38,466 nt of DNA from Methylococcales bacterium (GTDB lineage: Bacteria > Pseudomonadota > Gammaproteobacteria > Methylococcales > Methylomonadaceae). The stretch is taken from contig QVQF01000163.1 in assembly GCA_003584895.1 (NCBI GenBank), positions 1 through 38,466 on the forward strand. The letters run 5' to 3'. A program made the translations under genes and the position numbers. The notes beneath the pieces were generated by a model that was not told where the DNA came from, searched no databases, and saw only the letters and a program-made list of their open reading frames with translations. Numbering within the stretch: the stretch's first letter is position 1; every line of letters starts with the position of its first letter. Positions 14,850 to 36,017 of this stretch are shown here, one piece after another.

Positions 14850-15548
14850 TTAAATCTTAAGCCGGTAACCAACGCCTGATTCTGTCAATAAATACAGGGG
14901 TTGCGTGGGATCAGTTTCCAGCTTTTGCCGTAGTTGGCTCATGTAAATGCGGAGATAATGTGAGTTGTCGATATTTGATGGTCCCCAGATTTCTTTAAGC
15001 AGATATTGATGCGTTGAGACTTTTCCGGCATTTTTAATGAGTAATGATAATAAGCGAAATTGAATCGGTGTTAGATGAACTTCTCTGTCGCCGATAGTAA
15101 CCTCACGCTTGGGTATGTCGACTTTCAATTCGCCTGTGCTAAAAATACCCTGTTGATCTTGTTCAGGGCTGTTAGTTGAATGCCGCATGGCTACACGGAT
15201 ACGAGCGAGTAACTCCCCTAAACCAAAAGGTTTGGTTAGATAATCATCGGCACCTGCATCTAAAGCCTCAATTTTATGCTGTTCGCTGCTACGTGCCGAT
15301 AAGATAATAATCGGCAGCGTTGACCATGCTCGTATGGCTTTGATCACCTCAACGCCGTCTATGTCGGGTAAGGCCAAATCTAGGATAATGAGATCAGGTT
15401 TACGCACGCCCGCTTCGATAATGCCTTGTTTCCCTCGTTCTGCTTCAAATACTTTAAAGCCATGCGCGCCCAGACCTTTACGCAAAAAAAGGCGTATAGC
15501 AGGATCGTCTTCTATGACGACAACAACGAGATTGCTAACAGACCTCAT
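14850..15548 (-). CDS. kdpE: Kdp two-component response regulator
   Basis: 232 aa OmpR-type: receiver (VVVIEDDPAIRLFLRKGL, DLIILDLALPDIDG, TKPFGLGELLARI) plus winged helix; overlaps kdpD by 4 nt. Confidence 0.95.
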   Translation of the reverse strand: MRSVSNLVVVVIEDDPAIRLFLRKGLGAHGFKVFEAERGKQGIIEAGVRKPDLIILDLALPDIDGVEVIKAIRAWSTLPIIILSARSSEQHKIEALDAGADDYLTKPFGLGELLARIRVAMRHSTNSPEQDQQGIFSTGELKVDIPKREVTIGDREVHLTPIQFRLLSLLIKNAGKVSTHQYLLKEIWGPSNIDNSHYLRIYMSQLRQKLETDPTQPLYLLTESGVGYRLKI

Positions 15549-18280
15549 AGTGTTTGTTCCAATACTTGAGGTCTATGTTCTTGAGGAAGGGTGAATGAAA
15601 ATATCGCACCTCCCGTAGATCGGTTTTGCGCGTGGATACTGCCACCATGTGCGGTAATAATAGCCTTGCAGATGGATAAACCTAGACCTACGCCACTTTG
15701 TGCGGCCTCGTGGTGTACGCGGTAAAACTTCTCAAAGAGTTTATCTTCTAAGCCAGCAGGAATGCCGGGGCCTTGATCGGCTACCGCAATGTCTACGGTA
15801 GTCTCAGTCGTTTTTGCTCTAATTTCTATAGGACTTTGTTCTGGCGTATAACGCAGCACATTTTCTAATAGATTGCTTAACACTTGTTCGATCATCAGGG
15901 CGTCGGCATAAAGCATCGGCATGCCCGGTGGTAATTTAACGATCACTTGCCGACCAGTTAAACGTTTTTGTAAGCGTGTTAATACCGTGCCTATAATTTC
16001 CTCCAGCGGATAGTCTTGTTTATTGAGTTGTACAGCGCCAGCATCTAATCTAGCCATATCTAGGATATTATTGACTAAACTGGCCATGCGTAAACCCTCG
16101 TCATAAATGGCACGACAGAGTTCTAGTTTATCTTCGGGCTGTAAAGCTTGGTCTTCTTCGACTAAAGTGCTAGCTGAACCTACGATGGTGGTCAGCGGTG
16201 TACGCAAATCATGAGAAATAGAACTCAGTAGTGAATTACGTAAACGTTCGGCTGCCATTTCTACTTGGGTAGCTCTTGCTTGCTCGGTCAGACGTACACG
16301 CATAATCGCCTGAGCAATCTGTCTTATGAAGGTTTCTAATAATTTTTGTTGTTCGGGTAGGAACACGCGGCGTAAATTAATAGGCAATAGCACTAAAACA
16401 CCCATTACCGAGGTTTTGATACTGAGTGGTAAATACACCGCCTCTGCACCGGGGAGGGTATGCGTGCCTTGACCAGCAATTTCATTATGGTCCATCACCC
16501 ATTGCGCTACGCTCAGGTCTGCGGCATGTAAAGATTCAGGCAAGGCAGGGCCGCTAGGGTAAATAATACGACCATTGCTATCAGGAAAGAGTATGACATT
16601 TTGGCTACTGAATTCAGTGTAAAGGTGATGCACCGCTGAACGCAGGATTTCCTCTTCGCTTTGGCCGGCGGTCATATCTCTGCTCATGGCATAGAGTACC
16701 AAGGCGCGGCGTTCTCGGTGTGAGGCTACTTTGGCTTGGGAGCGTACATTGGCCATCAAATTACTGATTATTATACCCACGGCCAGCATGGCCATAAAAG
16801 TGATCAAATACTGACTGTCAGAAACCGAAAAACTGAAGTAAGGCTGAACAAAAAAGAAATCGAATACGGCAACACCTAGAAAAGAGGCAAAGATGGAAGG
16901 ACCGCGACCGAAACGGGTGGCAATAAACACCACGCCCAACAAATACACCATAATGAGATTAGCTAGCTCAAATCGACCAAACATTAGATAAGCCAGAAGA
17001 GTGCTAGTAAGCGTTACGCCAAAAGCGCCGACATAAGCCCAGATTTTATTCTTTCGAGAGCTTAGTCTACTGCTAAGGCCCGGTAAGGGATTTTTGCGGT
17101 ACAGTAGACTTTCTTTTTTATCTTTATCTAATCTTACTGGCCTAGGGCTGCCTAGTAGATAAAGATTAATGTTGTGCGCATCGCTAATGAGGCTATCGAC
17201 CAAGGAACCCAGCAGCAAACGTTTCCATCCCCGTCGTGTCGGTTTGCCTATGACAATTTTGGTTACATTTCTTTCATTGGACAGCTTGATAATGGCGGCG
17301 CTCATGTCGAGTGCGCTCATAGCTACGGTCTCAGCACCTAATTGTTCGGCAAAACGTAAAATGCTCAACACGCCATCGCGTTGCTCAGCTGACATGCGTT
17401 GCAATTCGGGCGTTTCGACATAGACAACCAGCCATTCGGCTCTTAAGCTGGTGGCGAAACGCTTGCCAGCGCGTACTAGACGTTCCGCTAAGGCGTTAGG
17501 GCCTATACAAACCATAATGCGTTCACTGACTTGCCACACTTCTGAGATAGCATTATTTTCGCGATAATCTTGCATCTGAGCATCGACTCGGCTGGCCGTT
17601 TGTCGCAGCGCCAGTTCCCTTAAGGCGATCAGATTACCTTTACGGAAAAAATGTTTGATAGCTACTTGAGCTTGTTGTGGTAAATAAACTTTGCCGTCTT
17701 TAAGTCGATCCAGCAGTTCGTCAGGAGGCAGGTCAACCAATTCAATTTCATTTGCATTTTCAAATACAGTGTCGGGTACTGTTTCCCAGACGCGTATGCC
17801 GGAAATTTGGCCTATATCATCATTCAGACTTTCTAAGTGCTGTACATTGAGGGCGGTATAGACATCAATGCCAGCATTTAATAGTTCTTCAATATCTTGC
17901 CAACGTTTGGGATGCCGGCAGCCTTCTACATTGCTATGTGCGAGTTCATCAACCAAAATGATAGAGGGTTTACGTTTTAAGGCAGCATCTAAGTCAAATT
18001 CTTTAAAGAGAGTTCTGCGGTAGTTAATAAGTTTGGGCGGCAATAATTCTAAGCCTTCCATTAAAGCTGCCGTTTCTTTGCGACCATGCGTTTCTACTAA
18101 ACCGACGATGATGTCACAGTTTTCTGCGCGTCTTTCTTTGGCGGCTAGTAACATCGCATAAGTTTTACCCACACCTGCGGCGGCACCAAAAAAAATCTTC
18201 AAGCGGCCACGATGGGCTTTGGCTTGTTCTCGATTGACGCGAGCGAGTAATTCATCAGGATCGGGGCGGGGTATATTCAT
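15545..18280 (-). CDS. kdpD: Kdp sensor histidine kinase
   Basis: 911 aa; N-terminal KdpD domain (GRLKIFFGAAAGVGKTYAML), Usp region, TM segments, GAF, HisKA SSISHDLRTPLTTIVG, HATPase. Confidence 0.97.
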   Translation of the reverse strand: MNIPRPDPDELLARVNREQAKAHRGRLKIFFGAAAGVGKTYAMLLAAKERRAENCDIIVGLVETHGRKETAALMEGLELLPPKLINYRRTLFKEFDLDAALKRKPSIILVDELAHSNVEGCRHPKRWQDIEELLNAGIDVYTALNVQHLESLNDDIGQISGIRVWETVPDTVFENANEIELVDLPPDELLDRLKDGKVYLPQQAQVAIKHFFRKGNLIALRELALRQTASRVDAQMQDYRENNAISEVWQVSERIMVCIGPNALAERLVRAGKRFATSLRAEWLVVYVETPELQRMSAEQRDGVLSILRFAEQLGAETVAMSALDMSAAIIKLSNERNVTKIVIGKPTRRGWKRLLLGSLVDSLISDAHNINLYLLGSPRPVRLDKDKKESLLYRKNPLPGLSSRLSSRKNKIWAYVGAFGVTLTSTLLAYLMFGRFELANLIMVYLLGVVFIATRFGRGPSIFASFLGVAVFDFFFVQPYFSFSVSDSQYLITFMAMLAVGIIISNLMANVRSQAKVASHRERRALVLYAMSRDMTAGQSEEEILRSAVHHLYTEFSSQNVILFPDSNGRIIYPSGPALPESLHAADLSVAQWVMDHNEIAGQGTHTLPGAEAVYLPLSIKTSVMGVLVLLPINLRRVFLPEQQKLLETFIRQIAQAIMRVRLTEQARATQVEMAAERLRNSLLSSISHDLRTPLTTIVGSASTLVEEDQALQPEDKLELCRAIYDEGLRMASLVNNILDMARLDAGAVQLNKQDYPLEEIIGTVLTRLQKRLTGRQVIVKLPPGMPMLYADALMIEQVLSNLLENVLRYTPEQSPIEIRAKTTETTVDIAVADQGPGIPAGLEDKLFEKFYRVHHEAAQSGVGLGLSICKAIITAHGGSIHAQNRSTGGAIFSFTLPQEHRPQVLEQTL

Positions 18281-18318
18281 GGCTTCATATTATTGATTCT
18301 ATGTGATTCGGCTGATTG

Positions 18319-18373
18319 GGAACGCTGAGCCCCAGCTTGGCATTTGTTCCGCCGAGCAGGGGCTCAGCGTTCC
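18319..18373. repeat. REP/MITE-like 55-bp hairpin between kdpD and kdpC
   Basis: GGAACGCTGAGCCCCAGCTTGGC (18319-18341) / atttgttcc / GCCGAGCAGGGGCTCAGCGTTCC (18351-18373): near-perfect 23-nt arms (one A-A mismatch, one wobble). Its end forms the G of the kdpC TAG stop. Confidence 0.8.
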
Positions 18374-18954
18374 TATTTAGCGGTAATAGTATCTAAGGTT
18401 AAATTCAAAGTGAGTACATTGACACTCGCTTCTCCTAGAAATCCCCATTGACGAGATTGGGTGTTCGCGGCAATCAAGGCGCGAAGTTTTTCTGGCTGCA
18501 TATTGCGCGCCTTAGCCACGCGATTAATTTGATAATCCGCAGCCGCAGGACTGATATGCGGATCTAAACCACTGGCTGAGGACGTAATAAGATCGACCGG
18601 AACTAGGTGTTTATTATCAGGATCAGCGTCTTTTAAACTCTGGAGTCGGGCTTTAACGGCATTTATTAACGCTGGATTGGTGGGGCCTAGGTTGGAACCG
18701 CTGGAAGCACCTGCATTATAAGGGAATGGCGCGGTGGCGGAGGGCCGTCCCCAAAAATGCTTAGGATCATTAAAAGCTTGGCCTATCAGAGCAGAGCCTT
18801 GCACTTTGCCCTGAACATCCGTCATCAGACTACCATTCGCTTGAATCGGAAATAGCCATTGCGCGAGCCCTGTCACTAGTAGCGGATAAATCACGCCAGT
18901 TAGTAAGCTTAATAATACAAACAAAATAATGGCCGGTTTTAAATGCTTAATCAT
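18373..18954 (-). CDS. kdpC: K+-transporting ATPase subunit C
   Basis: 193 aa; KPAIILFVLLSLLTGVIYPLLVTGLAQWLFP, GRPSATAPFPYNAGASSGSNLGPTNPAL. Confidence 0.96.
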   Translation of the reverse strand: MIKHLKPAIILFVLLSLLTGVIYPLLVTGLAQWLFPIQANGSLMTDVQGKVQGSALIGQAFNDPKHFWGRPSATAPFPYNAGASSGSNLGPTNPALINAVKARLQSLKDADPDNKHLVPVDLITSSASGLDPHISPAAADYQINRVAKARNMQPEKLRALIAANTQSRQWGFLGEASVNVLTLNLTLDTITAK

Positions 18955-18965
18955 ACTTAACTCCT

Positions 18966-21035
18966 TTAAACTAAACCTAGTGTGACCAGAAATAAGTCTA
19001 TCGCCTTAATGCCTATAAATGGCACTATCAATCCACCTAGACCATAAACCAGTAAGTTATTTTGTAGCAGCTTGGCCGCACCGACGGGCTTGTACTTGAT
19101 ACCCTTTAAAGCCAGAGGAATGAGCGCTATGATGATCAAGGCATTGAAAATCACTGCTGATAAAATAGCACTAGCCGGTGTCGCTAGTTTCATTACATTC
19201 AACACATCTAGTACCGGATAGGTGCTTGCAAACGCCGCTGGAATAATCGCAAAATATTTGGCTACATCATTGGCGATACTGAACGTCGTCAAGGCACCAC
19301 GAGTCATCAGCATTTGTTTACCTGTTTCAACGATTTCGATGAGTTTAGTCGGGTTAGAATCAAGATCAACCATATTGCCGGCTTCTTTAGCGGCTTGAGT
19401 GCCGCTGTTCATAGCGACGGCGACATCAGCCTGTGCCAAAGCCGGAGCATCGTTAGTGCCGTCTCCTGTCATCGCGACTAATCGACCTTCGGCTTGATAT
19501 TGTCTGATGAGATTTAGTTTCATTTCCGGTGTCGCTTCGGCTAGAAAATCATCAACACCGGCTTCAGCAGCAATAGCGGCAGCGGTTAGGCGATTATCGC
19601 CAGTAATCATTATGGTTTTAATGCCCATTTGTCTTAATTCTGCAAAGCGCTCTTTGATGCCGCCCTTGACGATATCTTTGAGTTCTATTACGCCGAGTAC
19701 TCTAGCATTTTCAGCAACCACCAACGGAGTGCTGCCGCGACGAGCCACATCATCAACCAATTTTCGAAACTCCGGTGGGAATTGTCCACCTTGTTCTTCA
19801 ACATAACTGCGTATGGCATCGGCTGCGCCTTTGCGAATTTGCCGGCCTTGAATGTTAACGCCGCTCATTCGAGTTTGAGCAGAAAAATGCACAAACGTTG
19901 CCCCTAAAGCATTCACATCGCGTTCTCGTATGCCGTATTTTTGTTTAGCTAACACGACTACACTCCGACCTTCGGGGGTTTCGTCAGTCAGTGAGGCTAA
20001 TTGGGCGGCATCGGCTAGTTCCTTATCTGTTACGCCTTTAACCGCTATAAAAGCAGAGGCTTGTCGATTGCCTAAGGTAATAGTGCCAGTTTTATCTAAG
20101 AGTAAGACATCAATATCGCCAGCAGCTTCAACTGCTCTACCGGAGGTGGCAATCACATTTTTTTGCATCATTCGGCCTATGCCGGCAATGCCGATGGCGG
20201 ACAACAATCCGCCGATAGTGGTTGGAATTAAGCAAACCAACAAGGCCACTAATACTGTAATGGTGATGGGTTGTCCAGAACCAGAGGTTTCTACCGCGTA
20301 TAAAGAAAACGGCAATAACGTCACAGTGGCCATCAAAAAGATTAAGGTTAAGGCAACCAGCAATATCGTTAAAGCAATTTCATTAGGGGTTTTTTGGCGT
20401 TTGGCGCTTTCCACCATAGCAATCATTCTATCTAAGAAGGCTTCGCCTGGATTGGCGGTAATACGCACTACTAGCCAATCCGACAACACCCTTGTGCCAC
20501 CGGTCACCGAACTGAAATCGCCGCCAGATTCGCGAATCACTGGCGCGCTTTCACCGGTGATAGCGCTTTCATCCACCGAGGCCACACCTTCTATTACTTC
20601 TCCATCACCCGGTACAAAATCACCGGCTTCTATTAATACCACATCACCGCAGCGTAATAAGGAGCCAGAGACTAGGCTTATATTGGCACCATAATGATCT
20701 GCATCGAGCTTTTTGGCGCTGATATCACGCTTGGCGGTACGTAAAAATGCGGCTTGTGCTTTACTGCGACCTTCGGCCACTGCTTCGGCAAAGTTGGCAA
20801 ATAAGACCGTGACCCATAACCACAGGCTGATGGTTAAAATAAACGGCGCAGGATCATTACCTAGGCCGTTTAGTGCTAATAGCCATAGCAGTGTTGTTAA
20901 TAGGCTGCCGATATATACGACAAACATCACTGGATTTTTCCATTGCTGTTGCGGTGTTAATTTAGCAAAGGCCGCGATGAAGGCCGCACTGAGTATTTGT
21001 CGGTCGAATAATGACTGTGACGCTAACTGATTCAT
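18966..21035 (-). CDS. kdpB: K+-transporting ATPase subunit B
   Basis: 689 aa P-type ATPase; [42 protein letters not shown]. Confidence 0.97.
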
Positions 21036-22801
21036 TAGTTAAACCCCTGCATTTGAAGATGCTCAACTATCGGCCCTAAAGCCAACGCGGGAATGAAGGT
21101 GAGTGCACCGACTAATAGGATGATGATAATCAATAAAGCGATGAACAAGGGTGTATGAGTCGGTAAAGTACCAGGACCTACCGGCACGATTTTTTTTGCC
21201 GCTAAGGAGCCTGCGATAGCGAGTATCGGTATGGCCAACCAATAACGAGAAATCAACATTGTTAAGCCGAGTAAGGCATTATAGTAGGGTGTATTAGCAG
21301 AAAGCCCTGCAAAGGCACTGCCATTATTATTACCGGCTGAAGATAAGCCATATAATATTTCGCTAAAACCATGAGCGCTAGGATTGAGTATGCCTGCCTT
21401 ACCTTGGTCTAGCATCACGCTAAACGCTGTACCTCCTAAGATCATTAAGGGAGGAATCAAGATCACTAGCGCAGCCATTTTTACTTCAAAAGCTTCAATC
21501 TTTTTGCCTAGATATTCAGGTGTGCGGCCTATCATAAGCCCTGATACAAAGACGGCAATAATGGCAAAGATAATCATGCCATACAAGCCTGAGCCTACGC
21601 CCCCGAACACTACTTCACCCAGCTGCATTAATAATAAAGGCATCATGCCACCTAAGGGTGTAAAGGAATCATGCATGGCATTCACCGAGCCATTAGACGC
21701 TGCGGTAGTTGCAACCGCCCATAGCGCCGAATTGGTGATGCCAAAGCGTGTTTCTTTACCTTCCATGTTGCCGCCAGTTTGGTCTATATTTAAAGCAGCT
21801 AGGGCAGGGTTGCCACTTTGTTCCGCCGACAGGGTAACAACGGTGAATGTGATAAATAGGATGCTCATCACGGCTAATAGTGCCCAACCTTGCCGGGTAT
21901 CTCCGATCATCTTGCCAAAGGTATAACAGAGTGCGGCGGGTATCAGTAAAATCGCTAGTAGTTCTAAGAAGTTGCTTAAGGGCGTTGGGTTTTCTAAGGG
22001 ATGGGCTGAATTGACATTGAAAAAGCCACCGCCATTAGTGCCCAGTTGTTTAATGGCGACTTGAGATGCTGCAGGCCCTACCGCAATTGTTTGTAGCTTT
22101 GTAACTTCGGATGTTAAGCTGGCTTTACCTTCAGTGTTCAGTGACGAGGTTTCATAATGGACGGCTTCAACTAAGGGGATGCTTTGATAAGCACTGAATG
22201 TTTGCACCACACCTTGTCCTACTAGGGCTAAAGCCAGCAATAGAGATAAGGGCATCAATATATATAAGGTGCTACGCGTTAGATCAACCCAGAAATTACC
22301 AATTAAGTCTGTATTGCGTCTAGCAAAACCTCGGATTAAGGCGACTAGAGTAGCCATGCCGGTTGCTGCAGAAAGGAAATTCTGTACTGTTAAGCCTAGC
22401 ATCTGCGTGAAATAACATAGGGTGGTTTCACCACTATAGCCTTGCCAGTCGGTATTGGTAGCAAAACTAACGGCAGTGTTGAAGGCAGAGTCAGGACTTA
22501 CATTAGCTAAATGTTGTGGATTGAAGGGTAATGAAGCTTGCAGACTTTGCAAAGCGAAGACAGTAAGTGCTCCTAACAAGTTAAATATCAGCATGGCGAT
22601 GGCGTAATCGGTCCACGGCATTTCTTGTTTAGGCTGTACGCCACTTAAGCGGTAGAGCCAAGTTTCAGCAGGCGCTAATAATCTGTTCAAGCCTGCGGGT
22701 TCATTTTCATAAATGCTGGCCATATAGCTACCTAATGGTTTAGCCAAGATCAGTACTGTGCCTATATATACGATAATCTGTAGCGCACTATTCGCGTTCA
22801 T
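21035..22801 (-). CDS. kdpA: K+-transporting ATPase subunit A
   Basis: Starts [49 protein letters not shown] selectivity motif. The 22942 start in the track reads through kdpF out of frame; ATG at 22801 overlaps the kdpF stop (TAATG). Confidence 0.96.
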
Positions 22802-22890
22802 TAAAACTTCTCCGGATAAAATAATACGGCAAGCAGGTAGATAAAAATCAGTAGCGCTAATCCTGTGCTTAAAAGATAAAGCCAATTCAT
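22801..22890 (-). CDS. kdpF: K+-transporting ATPase subunit F, 29 aa
   Basis: MNWLYLLSTGLALLIFIYLLAVLFYPEKF*, single TM with KdpF-like tail (LFYPEKF), GGAGA ribosome site at 5-nt spacing, stop overlaps kdpA ATG. Below the ORF-track size cutoff. Confidence 0.93.
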   Translation of the reverse strand: MNWLYLLSTGLALLIFIYLLAVLFYPEKF

Positions 22891-22979
22891 GATGGTCTCC
22901 TAAGTTTTTCAAAAATATAAACGAGTGCCACAGTGATGGCAAAGAAAGCTAATATTAATAGTAGATAGTAAGCGGTCAT
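22887..22979 (-). CDS. candidate 30-aa single-TM peptide preceding kdpF
   Basis: MTAYYLLLILAFFAITVALVYIFEKLRRPS*; stop overlaps the kdpF ATG (ATGA). Hydrophobic helix plus basic tail. Weak ribosome site. Confidence 0.65.
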   Translation of the reverse strand: MTAYYLLLILAFFAITVALVYIFEKLRRPS

Positions 22980-23995: not shown

Positions 23996-25297
23996 ATGAC
24001 AGAATCACAGGCAATGACAGCAAAGGTTTGTAAGTTGAGTGCCGAGCAGCTTAATCTACAATGTCAATGTACAGTACAGTATCATCAGGTCTTGCGTGAA
24101 CTACTAAGTCAGCAGGGCGATGATGGCAGTATCTATGGCATGATCATTAATGAACGCCCCAATTTGTTGGCAAAATCTAGGGTGTTTGTCAGTGAGCACT
24201 GTCTACAAAAACAGCGTGACATCATAACGGCAATAGAAACAGTGATAGCCATGCCAGCCTATCAACAACGTGTTTTAGCCTATGCGCCAGAAGTAGCCCA
24301 TTATCAACCCAAAGCGCAGGGTGTATTTTTTGGTTACGATTTTCATTTAGAGGGTGAAGAACCTAAGTTGATAGAAATTAATAGCAATGCGGGAGGTGCA
24401 TTAATCAATGCTCTGTTAGTGCGCAGTCAACAACAGTGCTGTGAACGCTTTAACCCTATGTTGATTACTATTGAACATACGGGTGATATGTTTGAGCAGA
24501 CTTTTTTGAACATGTTCCTAGAGGAATGGAAGGCTGAACGTGGCACGGAAGTATTGAAGACTATCGCTATTGTTGATGAAAATCCTGTTAGTCAATACAT
24601 GCTGCCCGAGTTTTTGTTATTTAAAAAATTGTTTGAACAACACGCTATACACACCGTTATTTGTGACCCATCCGAGCTGACTTATCATGATGGCGCGCTG
24701 TGGCATGACTTAAAACGTATTGATCTGGTCTATAATCGCTTGACCGATTTTGCTTTAGATGTACCCACTCAACAAGCCTTATTGGCAGCTTATTTAGCGG
24801 CTGTTGTGGTAGTTACTCCTCATCCTAGGGCTCATGCTTTATATGCCGATAAACGCAATTTGGTGATATTGACTGATGAAACCGAATTAATCGCGTTGGG
24901 TGTAGAGGCTAAAACTAGAGAGTTATTATTAGCAGGTATTGCTCATACCACAGAGGTAAAGACTGGTGATGCGGATACTTTATGGGCGACTCGCAAGCAC
25001 TTGTTTTTTAAACCCGCAAAGGGTTATGGCAGTAAAGCGGCTTATCGTGGTGACAAATTAACCAAGCGGGTGTTTAGCGAAATCATAAACAGCGATTATG
25101 TCGCTCAAACCCTAGTACAACCCAGTCAGCGCAGGGTAGAGATTGATAATGAGTTTGTGGAATTCAAATTAGATCTACGACATTATGTTTATAAAGCTCA
25201 TACGCAATTAGTCAGTGCTAGACTTTATCAAGGACAGACTACTAATTTCCGTACGCCTAGCGGCGGCTTTGCTGTAGTCAGCGTGGTTGCGGATTAA
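23996..25297 (+). CDS. uncharacterised ATP-grasp-like protein
   Basis: 433 aa; EPKLIEINSNAGGALIN, HLFFKPAKGYGSKAAYRGDKL and VEFKLDLRHYVY look ATP-grasp-like; no specific substrate can be assigned. Confidence 0.65.
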   Translation: MTESQAMTAKVCKLSAEQLNLQCQCTVQYHQVLRELLSQQGDDGSIYGMIINERPNLLAKSRVFVSEHCLQKQRDIITAIETVIAMPAYQQRVLAYAPEVAHYQPKAQGVFFGYDFHLEGEEPKLIEINSNAGGALINALLVRSQQQCCERFNPMLITIEHTGDMFEQTFLNMFLEEWKAERGTEVLKTIAIVDENPVSQYMLPEFLLFKKLFEQHAIHTVICDPSELTYHDGALWHDLKRIDLVYNRLTDFALDVPTQQALLAAYLAAVVVVTPHPRAHALYADKRNLVILTDETELIALGVEAKTRELLLAGIAHTTEVKTGDADTLWATRKHLFFKPAKGYGSKAAYRGDKLTKRVFSEIINSDYVAQTLVQPSQRRVEIDNEFVEFKLDLRHYVYKAHTQLVSARLYQGQTTNFRTPSGGFAVVSVVAD

Positions 25298-26124: not shown

Positions 26125-27405
26125 CTAACGTACATAGTGTAACTTTTGTCCGAGCATGTCCGGTGTGACTAAGACTACGCCACCATGACTGACATGAAAA
26201 CGTCTTTCATCTTCAGCTCTATCTTCGCCAATAATAGTCCCTTCTGGAATATCACAACCTTTTTCTATAATGGCTTTGGTAATACGGCAATGCCTACCGA
26301 TATTAACCTGAGGCAATATTATAGAATCTTGTACGTTGGTATAAGAATTAACACGGACATTAGAAAATAATAATGAATGTTTGACTTGCGCGCCAGATAT
26401 CACACAACCTCCAGATACCATGGAATCTACGGCTAAGCCTCGTCTATCATCATCATCAAAAACAAATTTAGCTGGTGGTGTTTGTTCTTGATGTGTCCAG
26501 ATAGGCCAAGTATTGTCATATAAGTTCATGCCAGGATTAACGCCGATAAGCTCCATATTAGCTGACCAGTAAGCATCAATGGTACCTACATCGCGCCAAT
26601 AGCTTTGTTCACCGCTTTGTAGATCTAAGAAGGGGTAGGCATTGACGATATATTTGTCGATAACGGCAGGAATAATATCTTTACCGAAATCATTAGTAGA
26701 GCCTACTGTATCAGCATCTTTTTGTAACTGTTCAAACAAGAAGTCGGCATTAAAAATATAAATGCCCATAGACGCTAAGGCCGTATCGGTTCTGCCGGGC
26801 ATCACAGGGGGATGTTCTGGTTTTTCAATGAAGGCTTTAACTCGACGGTTGCTATCAACATCCATTACCCCAAAAGCCGTGGCTTCTTCTAGAGATACTT
26901 CTAAGCAGCCGATAGTCAGGTCAGCATTTTTTTCTATATGATCGGCCAGCATTGCGCCATAATCCATTTTGTAGATATGATCGCCGGCTAGAATTAAAAT
27001 ATGTTTAGGCTTACGTGTGCGCAATATATCAATGTTTTGATATATTGCATCAGCCGTACCTTTGTACCAAGAGTCTTCGCCATGGCGTTGTTGAGCAGGC
27101 ATTAAATCTACATATTCACCAAATTCACCGCGCATAAAGCCCCAACCTTGTTGGATATGACGTATTAATGAATCAGCTTTGTATTGCGTTAAAATACCTA
27201 TTTTTCGGATACCTGAGTTGACACAATTAGATAAAGGAAAGTCTATAATACGAAATTTACCTCCAAAGGGTACTGCAGGTTTAGCGCGCCAGTCGGTCAT
27301 GTTGACGAGTCTTGAGCCGCGCCCCCCAGCCAATATTAAGGCAATGGTGTTACGGGTTAGATGACCGATGTTTTGTTCCTGTTTATGATGATTAGACCCT
27401 GACAT
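26125..27405 (-). CDS. glgC: glucose-1-phosphate adenylyltransferase
   Basis: 426 aa; [45 protein letters not shown]. Confidence 0.96.
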
Positions 27406-27499: not shown

Positions 27500-29956
27500 G
27501 TGATAAAGGATTCTAATAACACACTTGATTCTGAAGTGACTGAGTTGCTTACCGAAAAGCCGGTAGCGAGTACACCTAAACCTAAAGCCACTAAAGCGAA
27601 GGTAACTAAGACTTCAGTGCCTAAGGTTGAGGTTTCAGCAAAAAATAACGTAAAAACTAAGCCAGTTTCTAAAGCTAAAAGTGCTGTGCTTATAAAATCA
27701 GAAGCTATGACTAAAACCAGAAATGTTGAGGTCGTAGAGTCAAAAACTACAATTAAGAAAGCTGCTATAGAGACGCCCATGATCAAAACAGTCAAAAATA
27801 AGCTGCTAAATAACGATATGTTAAAAATCATGGATGCAAGACATCATGATCCATTCTCTGTGCTCGGGCGTCATGCAAAGAAAGATTTAATACAGATCAC
27901 TATTTATCTCCCTTATGCTGAATCAGTCAGTTTTAGTCATGAGGGCTCTGATTTTGAGAGAATTACAGGGAGTGACTTTTTTCAAGCGAATATTCAGTCA
28001 GAAACTTTGCCGACGCACTATCAATTAGTTTGGTTAGATAAAAGTGGTTACCGTCATGAAACCTATGATCCCTATGATTTTGGTACGCAATTACCCGAAT
28101 TTGATCAATATTTATTCGCTGAAGGTAAGCATTGGCATGTCTATCAAAAGTTGGGTGCCCATATACATAGCGTTGATGGTATAGCCGGCGTATTGTTTAC
28201 TGTTTGGGCACCCAGTGCCGGTCGAGTCAGCGTGGTCGGTGATTTTAATCAATGGGATGGCCGTTGTAACCCGATGCGCAGTTTGGGTGGTAGTGGTATT
28301 TGGGAGATTTTCATACCTGGATTAAAAGAGGGTTGTTACTATAAATTTGAAATACTAAACCGATTTAGTAATGAAATATTACTTAAAACTGATCCTTATG
28401 GTCAACAGTTTGAGTTTAGACCTAATACGTCTTCTATCGTGGTTAAGCCCGATAATTATATCTGGCAAGATGAATCATGGCTGTCTGCGCGCACTAAACA
28501 CGATTGGCTACATCAACCTATGTCTATCTATGAGGTGCATTTAGGTTCTTGGCGTCGAGATAGTCAGGGTAATTTTTTGACTTACCTAGAGCTTGCTGTC
28601 GAATTGGTTGATTATGTCAAGCAGATGGGATTTACTCATATTGAGTTATTACCGATTACTGAACATCCATTTGATGGTTCTTGGGGTTATCAAACGACGG
28701 GTTATTTTGCACCGACTAGTCGACATGGTTCACCTGATGATTTCCGCTATTTTATTGATACCTGTCATCAAAATGGTCTTGGCGTTATTCTTGATTGGGT
28801 ACCGGCACATTTTCCTAAAGATGCCTTTGCCTTAGCTCGCTTTGACGGTAGTGCTTTGTATGAACATGAAGACCCTCGCAAAGGAGAGCACCGTGATTGG
28901 GGGACTTTGATCTACAACTACGGTCGTAATGAAGTTAAAAACTTTTTATTGGCCAGTGCAAACTTTTGGTTAGAAGAGTTTCACTTAGATGGTTTAAGAG
29001 TCGATGCTGTCGCTTCTATGTTGTATTTAGATTATTCCCGTGAAGAACATGATTGGGTAGCCAATAAATATGGCGGCAATGAAAATCTGGAAGCTATCGA
29101 CTTTTTTAGAGAGCTGAATGCCGTGACTCATGATTTACATCCCGGCACGGTGATGATGGCTGAAGAGTCTACCTCTTGGCCACAAGTGACTCGTCCGACA
29201 TGGACTGGTGGTTTAGGTTTCTCTATGAAGTGGAACATGGGTTGGATGCATGATGTGCTCTCTTATATGAGTGAGGAGCCTGTGCATCGTAAATATCATC
29301 ATGATAGCCTAACCTTCGGTATGCTCTATGCGTTTACTGAGAACTTCGCTTTGCCATTTTCTCATGACGAAGTTGTGCATGGTAAAGGTTCGTTAGTCAA
29401 TAAAATGCCTGGAGATGAGTGGCAACGTTTTGCTAATCTGCGATTGTTATATACATTTATGTATACTTATCCAGGTAAAAAGTTGTTATTTATGGGTTGT
29501 GAGTTCGGACAAGGTACCGAATGGAATGCCAATAAAGAGTTAGATTGGTATGTGCTAGATTATCCGCACCATAAAGGCACGCAAACCTTGGTTAAGGATT
29601 TAAATCATCTTTATAAAACGCATCCAGCTTTGTTTACTCATGACTTTGATCATCAAGGTTTTGAATGGATTGATTGTCATGACGTTGAGCAATCTATTAT
29701 TAGTTACCGACGTAAAAGTGCTTTTGAAGAGTTAATAATCATTCTTAATTTTACACCAGTGCCTAGAATGAATTATCGCTTGGGAGTGCCTGAAGCAGGC
29801 GTTTATGCTGAAATTTTCAACTCAGACTCTCATTATTACAATGGTAGTAATACCGGTAATGGTGTAGTGGTATCAGAGCCTACTAAATGGATGAATTTAC
29901 CTCATTCCATTAGTCTTAACTTGCCTCCGTTGGGCGCTTTAATTTTAAAGTTATAA
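27500..29956 (+). CDS. glgB: 1,4-alpha-glucan branching enzyme with a Lys/Thr/Ala/Val-rich N-terminal extension
   Basis: 818 aa; GH13 motifs [51 protein letters not shown]. Conserved body starts near [17 protein letters not shown], about 106 residues in. Confidence 0.95.
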
Positions 29957-30025: not shown

Positions 30026-31459
30026 ATGAAAAAAATTCTTTTTGTAACGAGTGAAGCACATCCTTTAATTAAGACAGGTGGGCTTGCTGATGTATGTGGT
30101 AGTTTACCTAAAGCCTTGTCTGAATTATCTCAAGATATCAAACTGATACTGCCTAGATATCAGGCGTTGAAAATCACTGAGGATATCCGTTTTCTGTGTT
30201 CGGTCAGGGTTGATAATCGGAATGTTAATATTTTGGAAACTCGTTTGCCTGATAGTCAGGTCACCGTGTTGCTGGTAGATTATCCAACTTATTTTAATTT
30301 TCCGGGTAATCCATATGTTGATGAATTGGGTGAGCCTTGGCTTAATAATGCTGAACGCTTTGGTTTGTTTTGTAAAATTGCCGTGGAAGTGGCGATGGAT
30401 AGAGCTCATTTAAATTGGCAGCCAGATATTGTTCATTGTAATGATTGGCAGTCGGGTTTGGTTCCGGCTTTATTGTCTTTAGAATACGAACCTCCAAAGA
30501 CAGTCTTTACTATACACAATATGGCTTATCAGGGCTTGTTCCCCAAGACAGCGGTTTATGATTTAAATATACCCGGACGCTTATGGCATATCGCAGGCTT
30601 GGAATTTTATGACATGCTGTCTTTTATTAAAGGCGGTTTGGTCTACGCTGATTTCATAACTACGGTCAGCCCTAGTTATGCACTAGAAATTCAAACAACT
30701 GAATTTGGATATGGTCTTGAAGGCTTGTTGGCTACTCGTAACGCTTCATTAGGCGGCATTATTAATGGCATTGATACAGAGTACTGGAATCCTGAAACGG
30801 ACACTTATATTGCCCAGACTTATAGTGCTGCTACGCTTAATAAAAAACGACTTAATAAAGCAGATGTGCAACTAAAATTTGGTTTGCCAGTTAATGATAA
30901 AGTGCCCTTGTTTTCATTGATCGGTCGCTTAGTCGAACAAAAAGGTATTGATTTGTTAGTCGAGTGCCTCCCTGAAATGATGACCATGAATTTACAATTT
31001 GTGTTGTTAGGTAGTGGCGATAAAGTGTTTGAAAAACAATTACAAGTCTTGGCTGATCTGTATCCTGAAAAGATGGCGATTAGACTAGGCTATGATGAAG
31101 CTTTGGCGCATGTTATAGAGGCAGGAGCAGATGTTTTCCTAATGCCTTCTAAATTTGAGCCTTGTGGTTTGAATCAAATGTATAGCCAGCGTTATGGCAC
31201 GATTCCTATCGTTAGAAAAACCGGAGGTCTGGCTGATACAGTCACAGATACCTTGCCAGAAACGCTAGTTATAGGCAGTGCTAGCGGTCTTGTATTTAAT
31301 GAAGCCAGTGCTGGTGCTTTATTAGAAGCGATAAAGCGCGCTTTGATTTTATATAGTGTTCCAAATATCTGGAAGAAAATGCAAGTGAATGCGATGAGTC
31401 AAGACTTTTCATGGCAACGCTCCGCTGAACAGTATTTGGCTTTATATGAGAATCTGTAA
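30026..31459 (+). CDS. glgA: glycogen synthase (ADP-glucose type, GT5)
   Basis: 477 aa; MKKILFVTSEAHPLIKTGGLADVCGSLPKAL, PSKFEPCGLNQMYSQRYGTIPIVRKTGGLADTV. Confidence 0.96.
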   Translation: MKKILFVTSEAHPLIKTGGLADVCGSLPKALSELSQDIKLILPRYQALKITEDIRFLCSVRVDNRNVNILETRLPDSQVTVLLVDYPTYFNFPGNPYVDELGEPWLNNAERFGLFCKIAVEVAMDRAHLNWQPDIVHCNDWQSGLVPALLSLEYEPPKTVFTIHNMAYQGLFPKTAVYDLNIPGRLWHIAGLEFYDMLSFIKGGLVYADFITTVSPSYALEIQTTEFGYGLEGLLATRNASLGGIINGIDTEYWNPETDTYIAQTYSAATLNKKRLNKADVQLKFGLPVNDKVPLFSLIGRLVEQKGIDLLVECLPEMMTMNLQFVLLGSGDKVFEKQLQVLADLYPEKMAIRLGYDEALAHVIEAGADVFLMPSKFEPCGLNQMYSQRYGTIPIVRKTGGLADTVTDTLPETLVIGSASGLVFNEASAGALLEAIKRALILYSVPNIWKKMQVNAMSQDFSWQRSAEQYLALYENL

Positions 31460-31489: not shown

Positions 31490-32788
31490 ATGAAAAATTT
31501 ACTAAAGACTATATTCGTAATTGATGACGATGTGTGTCAGCACAAAATCATCAAGCATTTACTGCAACACGATAAATATAACTTGGTTTTTATTTCTGGT
31601 GAAGAAGCTACAACTATTTTGTTACGCACCAGACCCGATCTGATTTTGTTGGATATCAATATGCCAGACTTCGATGGACTGGATGTTTTACAAAAGATAA
31701 AACATTACCGCCATATTTCTGGAGTGCCGATTATTATGATCTCGGGAATGTGCGAAAAAAGAATCGTGATGCAAAGCATGTCGCATGGAGCTATTGATTT
31801 TATTGTCAAGCCATTCAATGGCGATTTTCTATTGAAGAAGATAAGGGATTTATTGATAGATGCTCACGAAGTTCCAAAAAAAGTTAGTGCTGCTCCTCAC
31901 TTACACTCCCTTCTTAAACCAACAACTATCTCAGCTACGTTACCAATTATTCCAATAATTCCTACGTTGCTACGCAACCTCTCATTTTTCTTTGATATGA
32001 GTGAAAAAGATGATGATTCAATTAAAAATCATCATCAAGAAATAGTCCGATTGATAGAATCAGATACGGAGATATCTTCCGTTATATTAAAAATCATTAA
32101 CTCGCCTCTTTATGGGTCTACTCAGAGGGCGCAAACTATAAGTGATACATTAAACGCAATAGGTTTCGTTAATATCTATGAATTGATCACGAGTATATCC
32201 TTACGTAATGCGATAAATAGCGAGAAACAACAGGCTGAATTAAATTTATTCTGGGAGCAAAGTGCCAGAACAGGATTGGTTCTTTCTTATTTAGCCACAC
32301 GTATCGCAAATGTGGATAAAAATATAGCTTTTCATTTTGGTATATTTCACGATTCAGGAAGAGCGCTAATGATGCGACATTTTCCATCCTACATTGAAAC
32401 ATTAAGGTTATCATCAATCACATTTGACCAAAATGTAACAACCATTGAAGATAATAGGCACAATTGCAATCATGCACAGTGTGGAGCGATGTTGGCAATG
32501 GCATGGGGATTGTCTGAAACTATCGTTACTGCTATTCGTTATCACCATAATATTAAAGTGATCAAGGAACATCACGCTTCAGAATTAATATTAAGCTTAA
32601 TTGCTATGGCTAATTTAGCGGAATATATTGAAAGTAATGATTCGTATTTAAGCGATAATCAATGGACTAAATATAAAGAAGAGTACATGGCAAGTTTGAA
32701 AATAAATGATCAACAAGTGAATGAATTAATAATGGAGACCAAGCAAATACTTATTAATGAATTCAATAATAATTATTGTATATTTTGA
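31490..32788 (+). CDS. response regulator with REC and HDOD domains
   Basis: 432 aa; IFVIDDDVCQHKI, DLILLDINMPDFDGLDVL, MISGM, IVKPFNGDFL; then HDOD-like IPTLLRNLSFFF...ILKIINSPLYGSTQRAQTISDTLNAIGFVNI and FHFGIFHDSGRALMM. Confidence 0.88.
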   Translation: MKNLLKTIFVIDDDVCQHKIIKHLLQHDKYNLVFISGEEATTILLRTRPDLILLDINMPDFDGLDVLQKIKHYRHISGVPIIMISGMCEKRIVMQSMSHGAIDFIVKPFNGDFLLKKIRDLLIDAHEVPKKVSAAPHLHSLLKPTTISATLPIIPIIPTLLRNLSFFFDMSEKDDDSIKNHHQEIVRLIESDTEISSVILKIINSPLYGSTQRAQTISDTLNAIGFVNIYELITSISLRNAINSEKQQAELNLFWEQSARTGLVLSYLATRIANVDKNIAFHFGIFHDSGRALMMRHFPSYIETLRLSSITFDQNVTTIEDNRHNCNHAQCGAMLAMAWGLSETIVTAIRYHHNIKVIKEHHASELILSLIAMANLAEYIESNDSYLSDNQWTKYKEEYMASLKINDQQVNELIMETKQILINEFNNNYCIF

Positions 32789-32893: not shown

Positions 32894-34399
32894 ATGCATG
32901 AAATTCAACTGCTGTATGTAGAAAATATCATCACCAGAAAGAAAAGTACCCCACAACAAGAATTGATCTTTGTTATGCGGGTGGCAAATTTAAGCCATGA
33001 CAAAAAAGTAGAAGTGTTATGGGCGGGTGAGCAAGGTGAATGGCAGGTCTTATCGGCTAGCTATCAGTATCAACTAAACGCAGATGAAGAATGCTGGAAA
33101 GCGAGGGTCATTATTAAAGCGCAGGGGCATACTAGTTTGCCCGGTAATATCAACTTTGCCTTGCACTACCAATGTTTAGGCCAAGAGTATTGGGATAATC
33201 AAGCAGGTAGCAATTATGCTAGCCAAGCAGACTCAGGCATACAATTAACAGCTAGCCAAAACCTGCAACAACTAGGTTTTGAATCTAAGTTGAAAGCAGG
33301 GCAACAACTTCTACCTATTACCGTCTCGGTTAATCAGGCTTTACAAGTCAAAGCGGTTATTCTTCATTGGACGACTGATAACTGGCTGACGAGTCATACA
33401 ACCCCTTGCCATTTTAATCGCCATTATTGGCATGAGCATGCGCAAAGTAATGCTAGAAACCCTAATCAATATGGCTCGCAGATATGGCAGGGTTTACTTA
33501 AAATCAATGATGCTTATCGTGTGGAGTATTCGATATCTTATGACACGGCTGTTGGGGTGTTATGGGATAACAATGACGGCAATAATTATAAACTCAGTCA
33601 TGAGCCGTTAAAGCTGATGATTCTTAATTTACATTGTTATCAGGAAGCACAGCAAGATGAAAAGTTTACTCAAATAGCCAAAGCCATTGATGACTTGGAC
33701 GTGGATATTGTTTGTTTTCAAGAAGTCGCTGAGCTTTGGAATGAAGGGTTTGGTGATTGGAAGACTCATTCTGCTAACATTATTAATAATAGACTTAAAC
33801 ACGCTTTCCATCTTTATAGCGATTGGTCGCATTTAGGCTTTGACAAATATCGTGAGGGCGTGGCTATTTTAAGTCGATATCCACTCCATAATCAGTCCGC
33901 CCGCTATGTTTCTGATAGCGATAGTATCTTCAGTATTCATGCTCGAAAAGTTATCATGGCCCAAGTTAATGTCCCCACTATGGGTTTAATTAATGTGTTT
34001 TCAGCACATTTAAGCTGGTGGGAAGATGGTTTTTCTCAGCAATTTAAAAAGTTGAGTTCATGGGCTAGTGAGCTTCAAGATCAATCAGTATCCGCTACCT
34101 TACTATGTGGTGATTTTAATATTACCAGCGGATCAGAGGGCTATCAGTTAATCGTCAATGCTAATGAATATGAAGATCAATTTCTGGCCATACAAGATCA
34201 GTGTGCCTTTGAAAAAATACTCAAGGTGAATGATGCTTATTGGAGTAACTCTCATGCTGAAGATTATCGTATTGATTATATCTTTATGAATAAAGTTAGT
34301 GACTTAAAAGTGCATTCAGGAAGAGTTTTATTTACCGATGATGATTATGGCAGAGTGTCAGATCATTGTGGCTATCTAATGAGCTTTGAACCTAAGTAA
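32894..34399 (+). CDS. two CBM21-like carbohydrate-binding modules plus endonuclease/exonuclease/phosphatase (EEP) domain
   Basis: 501 aa. CBM21-type signatures GQEYWDNQAGSNY and VGVLWDNNDGNNY; EEP motifs ILNLHCYQE, DIVCFQEVAELW, LLCGDFNIT, YRIDYIFM, VSDHCGYLM. Confidence 0.8.
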   Translation: MHEIQLLYVENIITRKKSTPQQELIFVMRVANLSHDKKVEVLWAGEQGEWQVLSASYQYQLNADEECWKARVIIKAQGHTSLPGNINFALHYQCLGQEYWDNQAGSNYASQADSGIQLTASQNLQQLGFESKLKAGQQLLPITVSVNQALQVKAVILHWTTDNWLTSHTTPCHFNRHYWHEHAQSNARNPNQYGSQIWQGLLKINDAYRVEYSISYDTAVGVLWDNNDGNNYKLSHEPLKLMILNLHCYQEAQQDEKFTQIAKAIDDLDVDIVCFQEVAELWNEGFGDWKTHSANIINNRLKHAFHLYSDWSHLGFDKYREGVAILSRYPLHNQSARYVSDSDSIFSIHARKVIMAQVNVPTMGLINVFSAHLSWWEDGFSQQFKKLSSWASELQDQSVSATLLCGDFNITSGSEGYQLIVNANEYEDQFLAIQDQCAFEKILKVNDAYWSNSHAEDYRIDYIFMNKVSDLKVHSGRVLFTDDDYGRVSDHCGYLMSFEPK

Positions 34400-34421
34400 T
34401 CTAGCAATGAAAGGAGATCAT

Positions 34422-36017
34422 ATGCCCTACGCAGAACATTATGCCAAGCCTGTGCATGGGCATTTAGGTGGCTATTTTCAAAGAGTGAATGATTTTAATC
34501 ATACCTTTGATATACGCTGGGGAAAAATAGAGTTTGATGTGAATTTTGGTGTGCAACTTAACATCAAAGTAGTCCTTAAAGTCTATAGAGAGCAGGGCAT
34601 TTGTGAAACTTATCTGATTGATACCGATGCTTATGATATTCAATGGGATAGACATAAACGCAAAACACGAGACTTTTATGTCTTACCATTCTCCAATCAT
34701 TTCGGCCCTATTACCTGTGTTAAGTTTGCTTATTTAGTGCATTTGCATGAGCATTCTTTGGCTTCTGAGTTTGATTATCTATTTATGGATAGCCAGCAAG
34801 TACAAAATGGTCATGATCAAAATCGCGTAATCACTAATGAAGGGCGTGCGGCTAATAGTTATCGTACTTATGAATTGAATGCCGTTGAATTACAGTGTGA
34901 TGCTGATTGGTATAATCATCATATTGATGATTTAAAACTAACGCCCAAGTTTACTAAAGGTCAGCAATATCATCCTTATCATCCTAAACGATATATACAT
35001 GATCATATTGACAAAGTAATACACTGTCGTAGGCAAAACCCACAGCGACTTTGTACCATTAAAGTCAGTGTCGATTGTATAGACGACACTGATTTTATTA
35101 ATCATTTGATCTATGCCAGTCAAGAAGGTGTTTTAGTTCAGTGTATCGTTGATTGGCGAAAAATGACGCTCACTAACAGTGATAATTACGCCCGTTTAAA
35201 ATGTGCCAGAGTTGAATTAATCGGTGTGTTTTGTACACCTCAACATCACCTGATCGAAGTTGAACCCGATATGCACACCAAATTCGTGATATTCAACGAT
35301 GAGGACTGCATCTTAGGGTCTTTTAATATCACTTTTGATCGCTGGTGGGCAAACTGGGAATCGGGTATGACTTTCCAGTCCAAAGGTGTTTGTAGATTGT
35401 TGGATAATATATTTCAAAGTCAGCGCGGCGGTGTTAATCAGCGCTATGGAATAGATCCTTTAAGTCATTTTAATCTGCTCTATACCTTTGGCAGGCAAGT
35501 CATGCAAAATGGTCAGCTCTATCGTCCGCATCATGCCATTTTGGCTGAGATTCATAGAGCCAAGCATTCTATTAAGCTGTGTTTGTTTCTAATGGGTGAT
35601 TTATTAGGTGATTATCATGATAGCGTGGTTGATGCGTTAATACAGGCCCATCATCGGGGTGTTTATGTCCATATTTTATTTAATGGCCATTTGGCCAGAC
35701 AAGGACGCATAGGCTTAGAGCGTTCAATGTATGATGAGCTTAATCGAGCATTACTACCGGCAGTGCAGCGTTTAAGAAATGCTGGTATTGTGGTGGGTTT
35801 GGTTTATGGTCTAGATGATCACCCTGTGCCTTATTCACCGATACATTCTAAGTATTGTATTATTGACGACTCTATTGTTATAGAAGGTAGCTTTAACTGG
35901 TATAACACCTCGGTATTTTCACACGATCTATTGGTAGTGGTTAATAATTATGGGGTAGCCGAACCTTATCGCTATGAGTTTGAACAAATACAGCATTCAT
36001 TTAGAGTGTATTATTAA
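34422..36017 (+). CDS. phospholipase-D-like (HKD) family protein with a novel N-terminal domain
   Basis: HTKFVIFNDEDCILGSFN and HSKYCIIDDSIVIEGSFNW. AAGGAG at 34411-34416 supports ATG at 34422 rather than 34386. Confidence 0.85.
   Translation: MPYAEHYAKPVHGHLGGYFQRVNDFNHTFDIRWGKIEFDVNFGVQLNIKVVLKVYREQGICETYLIDTDAYDIQWDRHKRKTRDFYVLPFSNHFGPITCVKFAYLVHLHEHSLASEFDYLFMDSQQVQNGHDQNRVITNEGRAANSYRTYELNAVELQCDADWYNHHIDDLKLTPKFTKGQQYHPYHPKRYIHDHIDKVIHCRRQNPQRLCTIKVSVDCIDDTDFINHLIYASQEGVLVQCIVDWRKMTLTNSDNYARLKCARVELIGVFCTPQHHLIEVEPDMHTKFVIFNDEDCILGSFNITFDRWWANWESGMTFQSKGVCRLLDNIFQSQRGGVNQRYGIDPLSHFNLLYTFGRQVMQNGQLYRPHHAILAEIHRAKHSIKLCLFLMGDLLGDYHDSVVDALIQAHHRGVYVHILFNGHLARQGRIGLERSMYDELNRALLPAVQRLRNAGIVVGLVYGLDDHPVPYSPIHSKYCIIDDSIVIEGSFNWYNTSVFSHDLLVVVNNYGVAEPYRYEFEQIQHSFRVYY

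Follow-up and report, generated by a model that had tools for sequence, protein, structure and literature searches.

Here, we present an analysis of a gene from a bacterium of the order Methylococcales that encodes two CBM21 modules followed by an EEP domain ([CBM21]2-EEP). The gene lies in a window of 38,466 nucleotides, i.e., the whole stretch of DNA that was analyzed (contig QVQF01000163.1; Table 1). The fusion of a CBM21 tandem to an EEP domain is real and far beyond chance: in Pfam, the whole protein matched CBM_21 in two stretches (PF03370, E-value of 3.1e-20) and Exo_endo_phos (PF03372, E-value of 3.5e-18), and AlphaFold2 returned a confident model (mean pLDDT of 89, pTM of 0.81). NCBIfam holds no family matching this protein. 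The preliminary description, made by inspection of the DNA, had placed tandem CBM21-like modules at the N-terminus and the full set of EEP motifs in the C-terminal half; the Pfam, AlphaFold, and Foldseek checks it proposed were run and bore out both assignments, with PF03370 covering the N-terminal half, PF03372 the C-terminal half, and solved EEP structures matching the EEP half of the model. Judging from its sequence, we consider it reasonably probable that the [CBM21]2-EEP protein is a glycogen-bound phosphatase, analogous to laforin and SEX4 and built on an unrelated fold. The known kind is a carbohydrate-binding module joined to a phosphatase, and CBM21-EEP would be a new variation on that plan.

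Table 1. Positions of the features in the window, in order along the forward strand
Feature	Position	Strand	Remarks
glgC, ADP-glucose pyrophosphorylase, divergent	26125..27405	-	TIGR02091, 519 bits
glgB, GH13 branching enzyme	27500..29956	+	NF003811, 1023 bits
glgA, ADP-glucose glycogen synthase	30026..31459	+	TIGR02095, 580 bits
[CBM21]2-EEP gene, predicted glycogen-bound sugar phosphatase	32894..34399	+	ORF, ATG start, 501 aa
CBM21 module 1 (residues 9-109)	32918..33220	+	PF03370, 37.9 bits; aligns with 2djm, the starch-binding domain of R. oryzae
CBM21 signature 1, GQEYWDNQAGSNY (residues 96-108)	33179..33217	+	G105 and N107 at least 90% conserved
CBM21 module 2 (residues 136-234)	33299..33595	+	PF03370, 47.3 bits; aligns with the glycogen-targeting subunits 3B and 3C of PP1
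CBM21 signature 2, VGVLWDNNDGNNY (residues 220-232)	33551..33589	+	W224-N227, N231, and Y232 at least 90% conserved
EEP catalytic domain, MapP/RgfB-like (residues 238-499)	33605..34390	+	PF03372; 3teb; MapP-group profile
GDFN catalytic motif (residues 406-409)	34109..34120	+	G406, D407, and N409 invariant from the [CBM21]2-EEP protein to MapP
RIDYIF catalytic motif (residues 459-464)	34268..34285	+	R459, I460, and D461 invariant
SDH catalytic motif (residues 489-491)	34358..34366	+	D490 and H491 invariant
Two-HKD PLD-superfamily protein, 531 aa	34422..36017	+	PLDc_2 twice; ATG at 34422, AAAGGAG at 34410

The most familiar CBM21 proteins are the PP1 targeting subunits and fungal glucoamylases. 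Both copies in the [CBM21]2-EEP protein independently pass the curated Pfam cut-off of 28.9 bits in the genome profile search, and profile-profile comparison shows that the two are homologous (probability of 96.7%, P of 4e-10). Using a profile of 37 homologues, the CBM21 region matched the solved PP1 targeting subunits 3A, 3B, and 3C as well as the starch-binding domain of the Rhizopus oryzae glucoamylase. The two related signatures noted earlier are both present, as W100-DNQAGSN-Y108 and W224-DNNDGNN-Y232, and PPP1R3A/B/C and the R. oryzae glucoamylase have the same W-D-N-N-x-G-x-N-Y type of site; however, these proteins are eukaryotic, carry a single module, and either recruit a separate protein phosphatase or place the module ahead of a glycosidase. 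In the R. oryzae CBM21 (RoSBD), the glucan contacts of sites I and II are N29, Y32, K34, W47, F58, E68, Y94, N96, and N101 (PMC3398936). In the alignment to this domain, module 1 retains the contacts N32, K37, W50, Y57, E66, W100, N102, and N107 and has H35 at the position of a RoSBD Tyr, where the family consensus is Tyr; module 2 retains W164 and W224-DNNxGxNY. Thus, based on the conserved residues, the glucan-binding sites of both modules look intact. In the AlphaFold2 model, the CBM21 region consists of beta strands, mostly with a pLDDT of 83-94, and the whole-model fold matches listed all fall on the EEP half. A methanotroph genome also encodes a stand-alone protein of 223 aa (L071:601-1272) that comprises two CBM21 modules (PF03370, 6.8e-19) and no EEP domain.

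By its fold matches, the EEP domain has the four-layer fold of the superfamily; its N, E, H, DxN, D, DH catalytic set is complete, and N245, Q276, E277, H372, D407, N409, D461, D490, and H491 are invariant among the 37 homologues, down to 49% identity. The nearest solved structure by sequence is 3TEB, an EEP protein of Leptotrichia buccalis from structural genomics (3.9e-31 with the EEP region of the 37-homologue profile), and 3TEB was also the first Foldseek match of the AlphaFold2 model (2.4e-18), followed by neutral sphingomyelinase, a Beutenbergia EEP protein, and TDP2. 3TEB is likewise closest to MapP; however, it consists of the EEP domain alone and its title gives no function. Lower among the EEP fold matches is BT3783 of Bacteroides thetaiotaomicron (4c1r), another EEP protein, whose PDB title, mannosyl-6-phosphatase, counts in favor of a sugar-phosphatase reading.

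When plasmids were searched by tblastn with the protein, the matches were EEP-only proteins from Enterococcus, Lactococcus, Leclercia, Cetobacterium, and a few others, one of which is annotated as maltose 6'-phosphate phosphatase. In all five of the matching regions examined, a PTS IIBC gene lies immediately upstream of the EEP gene, and the neighbors are genes for a GH65 phosphorylase and a beta-phosphoglucomutase, or for an alpha-glucosidase; the operons with MapP-group genes in these four genera are of the alpha-glucoside type. MapP of Enterococcus faecalis is described as a phosphatase of maltose-6-phosphate that belongs to an EEP family formerly without known function (PMC3737437). A MapP-group profile, built from only four MapP-group proteins, scored the EEP domain of the [CBM21]2-EEP protein at 138 bits (E-value of 2.5e-41) versus 14.6, 14.5, and 3.9 bits for YbhP, XthA, and YafD of E. 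coli. Beyond the general EEP residues, H247, H313, E321, G322, R351, W375, and R459 are common to 11 of 11 compared proteins. By sequence comparison, the domain is therefore assigned to the MapP/RgfB-like subfamily rather than to generic nucleases. In an EEP tree with E. coli outgroups, the branches to the outgroups were 8-10 changes per site long, which made their placement meaningless, and profile scores were used instead. MapP resembles the [CBM21]2-EEP protein in its EEP subfamily and acts on a phosphorylated alpha-1,4-glucoside; by contrast, it lacks CBM21, belongs to a PTS operon, and has just 28% identity to it, so the specificity of the two may differ. We found no PTS gene beside the [CBM21]2-EEP gene in the loci examined, where the neighbors are glycogen genes. 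Among the abstracts listed for papers on RgfB, none gave biochemistry. Searches for viral relatives of the CBM21-EEP architecture found none, and the viral fold library gave generic EEPs. Many genomes of the family also encode an EEP-only paralogue of about 280 aa (35-37% identity; e.g., L057:3995-4834 and L058-L068); its contexts are scattered and without obvious glycogen genes, which counts against the glycogen-phosphatase reading, and in one locus (L061), it directly adjoins the CBM21-EEP gene.

A link to glycogen, proposed from the binding modules in the preliminary description, is supported by gene context and co-occurrence. Two arrangements recur: in Crenothrix/Methylobacter-type loci, glgC is divergent from glgB-glgA-EEP-PLD, while Methylomonas- and Methyloprofundus-type loci have the order DUF4912-GH57 branching enzyme-EEP-PLD, often with a divergent isoamylase/GlgX-type gene. 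Of the 40 informative loci, 29 have a glycogen gene at most three genes from the CBM21-EEP gene, by manual count of glgA/B/C, GH57 branching enzyme, isoamylase/GlgX, and DUF4912 genes in the flanks; the remaining 11 have none nearby, a point against the glycogen-phosphatase reading. Within the host family, the GH57 branching enzyme is encoded by 88/94 genomes with CBM21-EEP and by 6/33 without it, a comparison that ignores kinship, the Fisher test included; glgA is nearly universal in both sets. In the window, a response regulator-HDOD gene (31490-32788) lies between glgA and the EEP gene and is missing there in related loci of the same arrangement.

The survey of this architecture, also suggested previously, showed that it is largely confined to one methanotroph family. 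A homologue scan of genome contigs gave 49 related loci, nearly all from gammaproteobacterial methanotrophs of the order Methylococcales. The CBM21-EEP protein is encoded in 94 of the 201 sampled Methylococcales genomes, and all 94 belong to the host family, from which 127 were sampled; no full-length copy was found among the sampled genomes of the other families of the order, and CBM21 was absent from the 398 other genomes among 399 sampled across the phylum. Single CBM21-EEP copies are present in MAGs labeled Brocadiia, Methylobacillus, and Piscirickettsiaceae and could be gene transfers or binning errors. The Brocadiia-labeled MAG (L045:8001-11107) has the EEP-PLD pair (49% and 55% identity, respectively), away from glycogen genes. 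A literature search joining CBM21 and methanotrophs found nothing relevant.

The [CBM21]2-EEP gene is closely associated with a gene for a protein of the PLD superfamily. The two genes are adjacent and co-oriented in 81 of 94 genomes (15-717 bp apart), and the PLD gene is present in all 94 genomes with CBM21-EEP, even if unlinked; one further genome has the PLD gene alone. When the two are split, the EEP gene keeps GH57, DUF4912, or GlgX as a neighbor in the loci retrieved, whereas the genes around PLD are unrelated. Because the PLD gene is retained even when unlinked, these data argue for the EEP and PLD proteins forming a functional pair. The PLD protein shows higher conservation than the EEP protein and has HxKx4N in its first motif, with Asn for Asp (N292), and HxKx4D in its second. 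A fold search with its whole model had PLD-superfamily and PPK proteins among the matches listed. Its N-terminal domain (about residues 1-125) is beta-rich, with an AlphaFold2 pLDDT mostly in the high 80s; we rejected this domain as a third CBM21 because it had no profile-profile match to CBM21 (P of 0.08 and 0.5).

We suggest that two CBM21 modules would hold the [CBM21]2-EEP protein on alpha-1,4-glucan chains, and that its metal-dependent EEP domain of the MapP subfamily would hydrolyze phosphate monoesters, the likeliest target being C6 of glucose units, either in glycogen or in phospho-dextrins released from glycogen. Glycogen phosphate would thereby be kept low, such that branching and debranching enzymes are able to work. 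Branching enzymes, including one from a bacterium, have a lower affinity for their substrate when the glucan carries phosphate (PMC13011383), and the association with branching-enzyme genes fits a glycogen phosphatase. Our search for phosphate on methanotroph glycogen found no evidence of it, and glycogen phosphorylation in such microbes was left as speculation in 2025 (PMC13011383). Laforin, the human enzyme for dephosphorylating glycogen (CBM20 and a dual-specificity phosphatase [DSP] domain), and plant SEX4 (DSP and CBM48) similarly fuse a glucan-binding module to a phosphatase-type domain, and the job predicted is the same; they differ in the CBM family and in an unrelated catalytic fold. 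According to PMC12834914, laforin is "the only known glycogen phosphatase," and a DSP domain is common to all glucan phosphatases. Pfam detected no DSP (PTP-fold) domain in the CBM21-EEP protein at E-values up to 1, the catalytic half being EEP; therefore, the protein is not a member of a laforin-type family, though it may work like one. Among the substrates originally offered, namely, glycogen phosphate, lipid, RNA, or glycogen as a scaffold, the first is favored and the others less so, since the EEP domain falls in the MapP subfamily and not with nucleases.

The tight partnership with PLD is a point against a phosphatase acting alone, and we considered whether the EEP and PLD proteins could jointly handle phosphate on bacterial glycogen as a two-enzyme system, an idea that draws on analogy and that we hold only tentatively. 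The PLD-superfamily enzyme ClsB makes 6-phosphatidyltrehalose (PMC9241728), and therefore a PLD enzyme can put a phosphodiester on glucose C6. By this scheme, the PLD protein would install a phosphodiester, as ClsB does on trehalose C6, or open one, which would leave a C6 phosphate monoester for the glycogen-tethered EEP domain to remove; under this scheme, phosphate or phospholipid would be a modification of bacterial glycogen that the cell manages. In E. coli (L102:1-1998) and Salmonella, the EEP gene ybhP likewise shares an operon with clsB, the PLD-superfamily gene next to it; however, YbhP is not MapP-like, as its profile score given above shows, and has no CBM21, and ClsB is a cardiolipin synthase. 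With ybhP-clsB as another pair, the EEP and PLD families may pair more often. We find it doubtful that the substrate is instead soluble, with the enzyme acting on phospho-maltodextrins or a small sugar phosphate near the granule and CBM21 serving only for localization. The substrate of MapP is itself a disaccharide phosphate, and in one locus (L043), the gene adjoins a gene for a GlgX-type debranching enzyme with no PLD gene; however, two conserved binding modules are a costly means to reach a soluble substrate, and no PTS or maltose-phosphate source lies beside the gene in the loci examined. Similarly unlikely, and slightly more so, is a pair of glycogen-associated phosphodiesterases whose substrate would be nucleic acid or phospholipid on the surface of the particle. 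The invariable presence of PLD, linked or not, the match of the PLD profile to MitoPLD, Nuc, and NucT, and the presence of TDP2 and sphingomyelinases among the EEP fold matches all speak for it, but those fold matches are generic to the EEP superfamily, and the EEP sequence is MapP-like, with nuclease EEPs near background in the MapP profile.

Two further explanations appear far less probable. The protein could mainly be a scaffold or organizer of the glycogen particle, with the EEP domain as a reader of phospho-glucan and not an enzyme. Laforin without catalytic activity reportedly prevents Lafora bodies from forming (PMC12834914), so binding can matter by itself; however, all EEP catalytic residues are invariant in the homologues, and therefore we argue for selection on catalysis, which makes a pure scaffold very improbable. 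Least probable of all, in our judgment, is a granule-bound ADP-glucose hydrolase that restrains glycogen synthesis, although the gene adjoins glgC/B/A in Crenothrix/Methylobacter-type loci and ADP-glucose build-up has been proposed to harm growth of Methylomonas DH-1 (PMC11934524). The affinity to MapP points to phosphomonoesters, and across genomes the gene goes with the GH57 enzyme more closely than with glgA. Also counting against such a hydrolase, we know of no EEP sugar-nucleotide pyrophosphatase.

If the protein is a glycogen phosphatase, a bacterial family would have independently invented the function of laforin with a CBM21-tethered MapP-like enzyme, and some bacterial glycogen would carry phosphate, as speculated previously (PMC13011383). 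Our findings place CBM21 in a bacterial glycogen system, and the gene offers a knock-out route via Methylomonas strains that are amenable to genetics, such as DH-1 (PMC11934524). The enzyme could also be a tool for removing phosphate from starch. Elsewhere in the window, a 433-aa ORF (23996-25297) has no Pfam match at 1e-6, and positions 14850-22942 on the minus strand hold an ordinary kdp potassium-transport cluster encoding KdpA, an E1-E2 ATPase, KdpD, and a response regulator.
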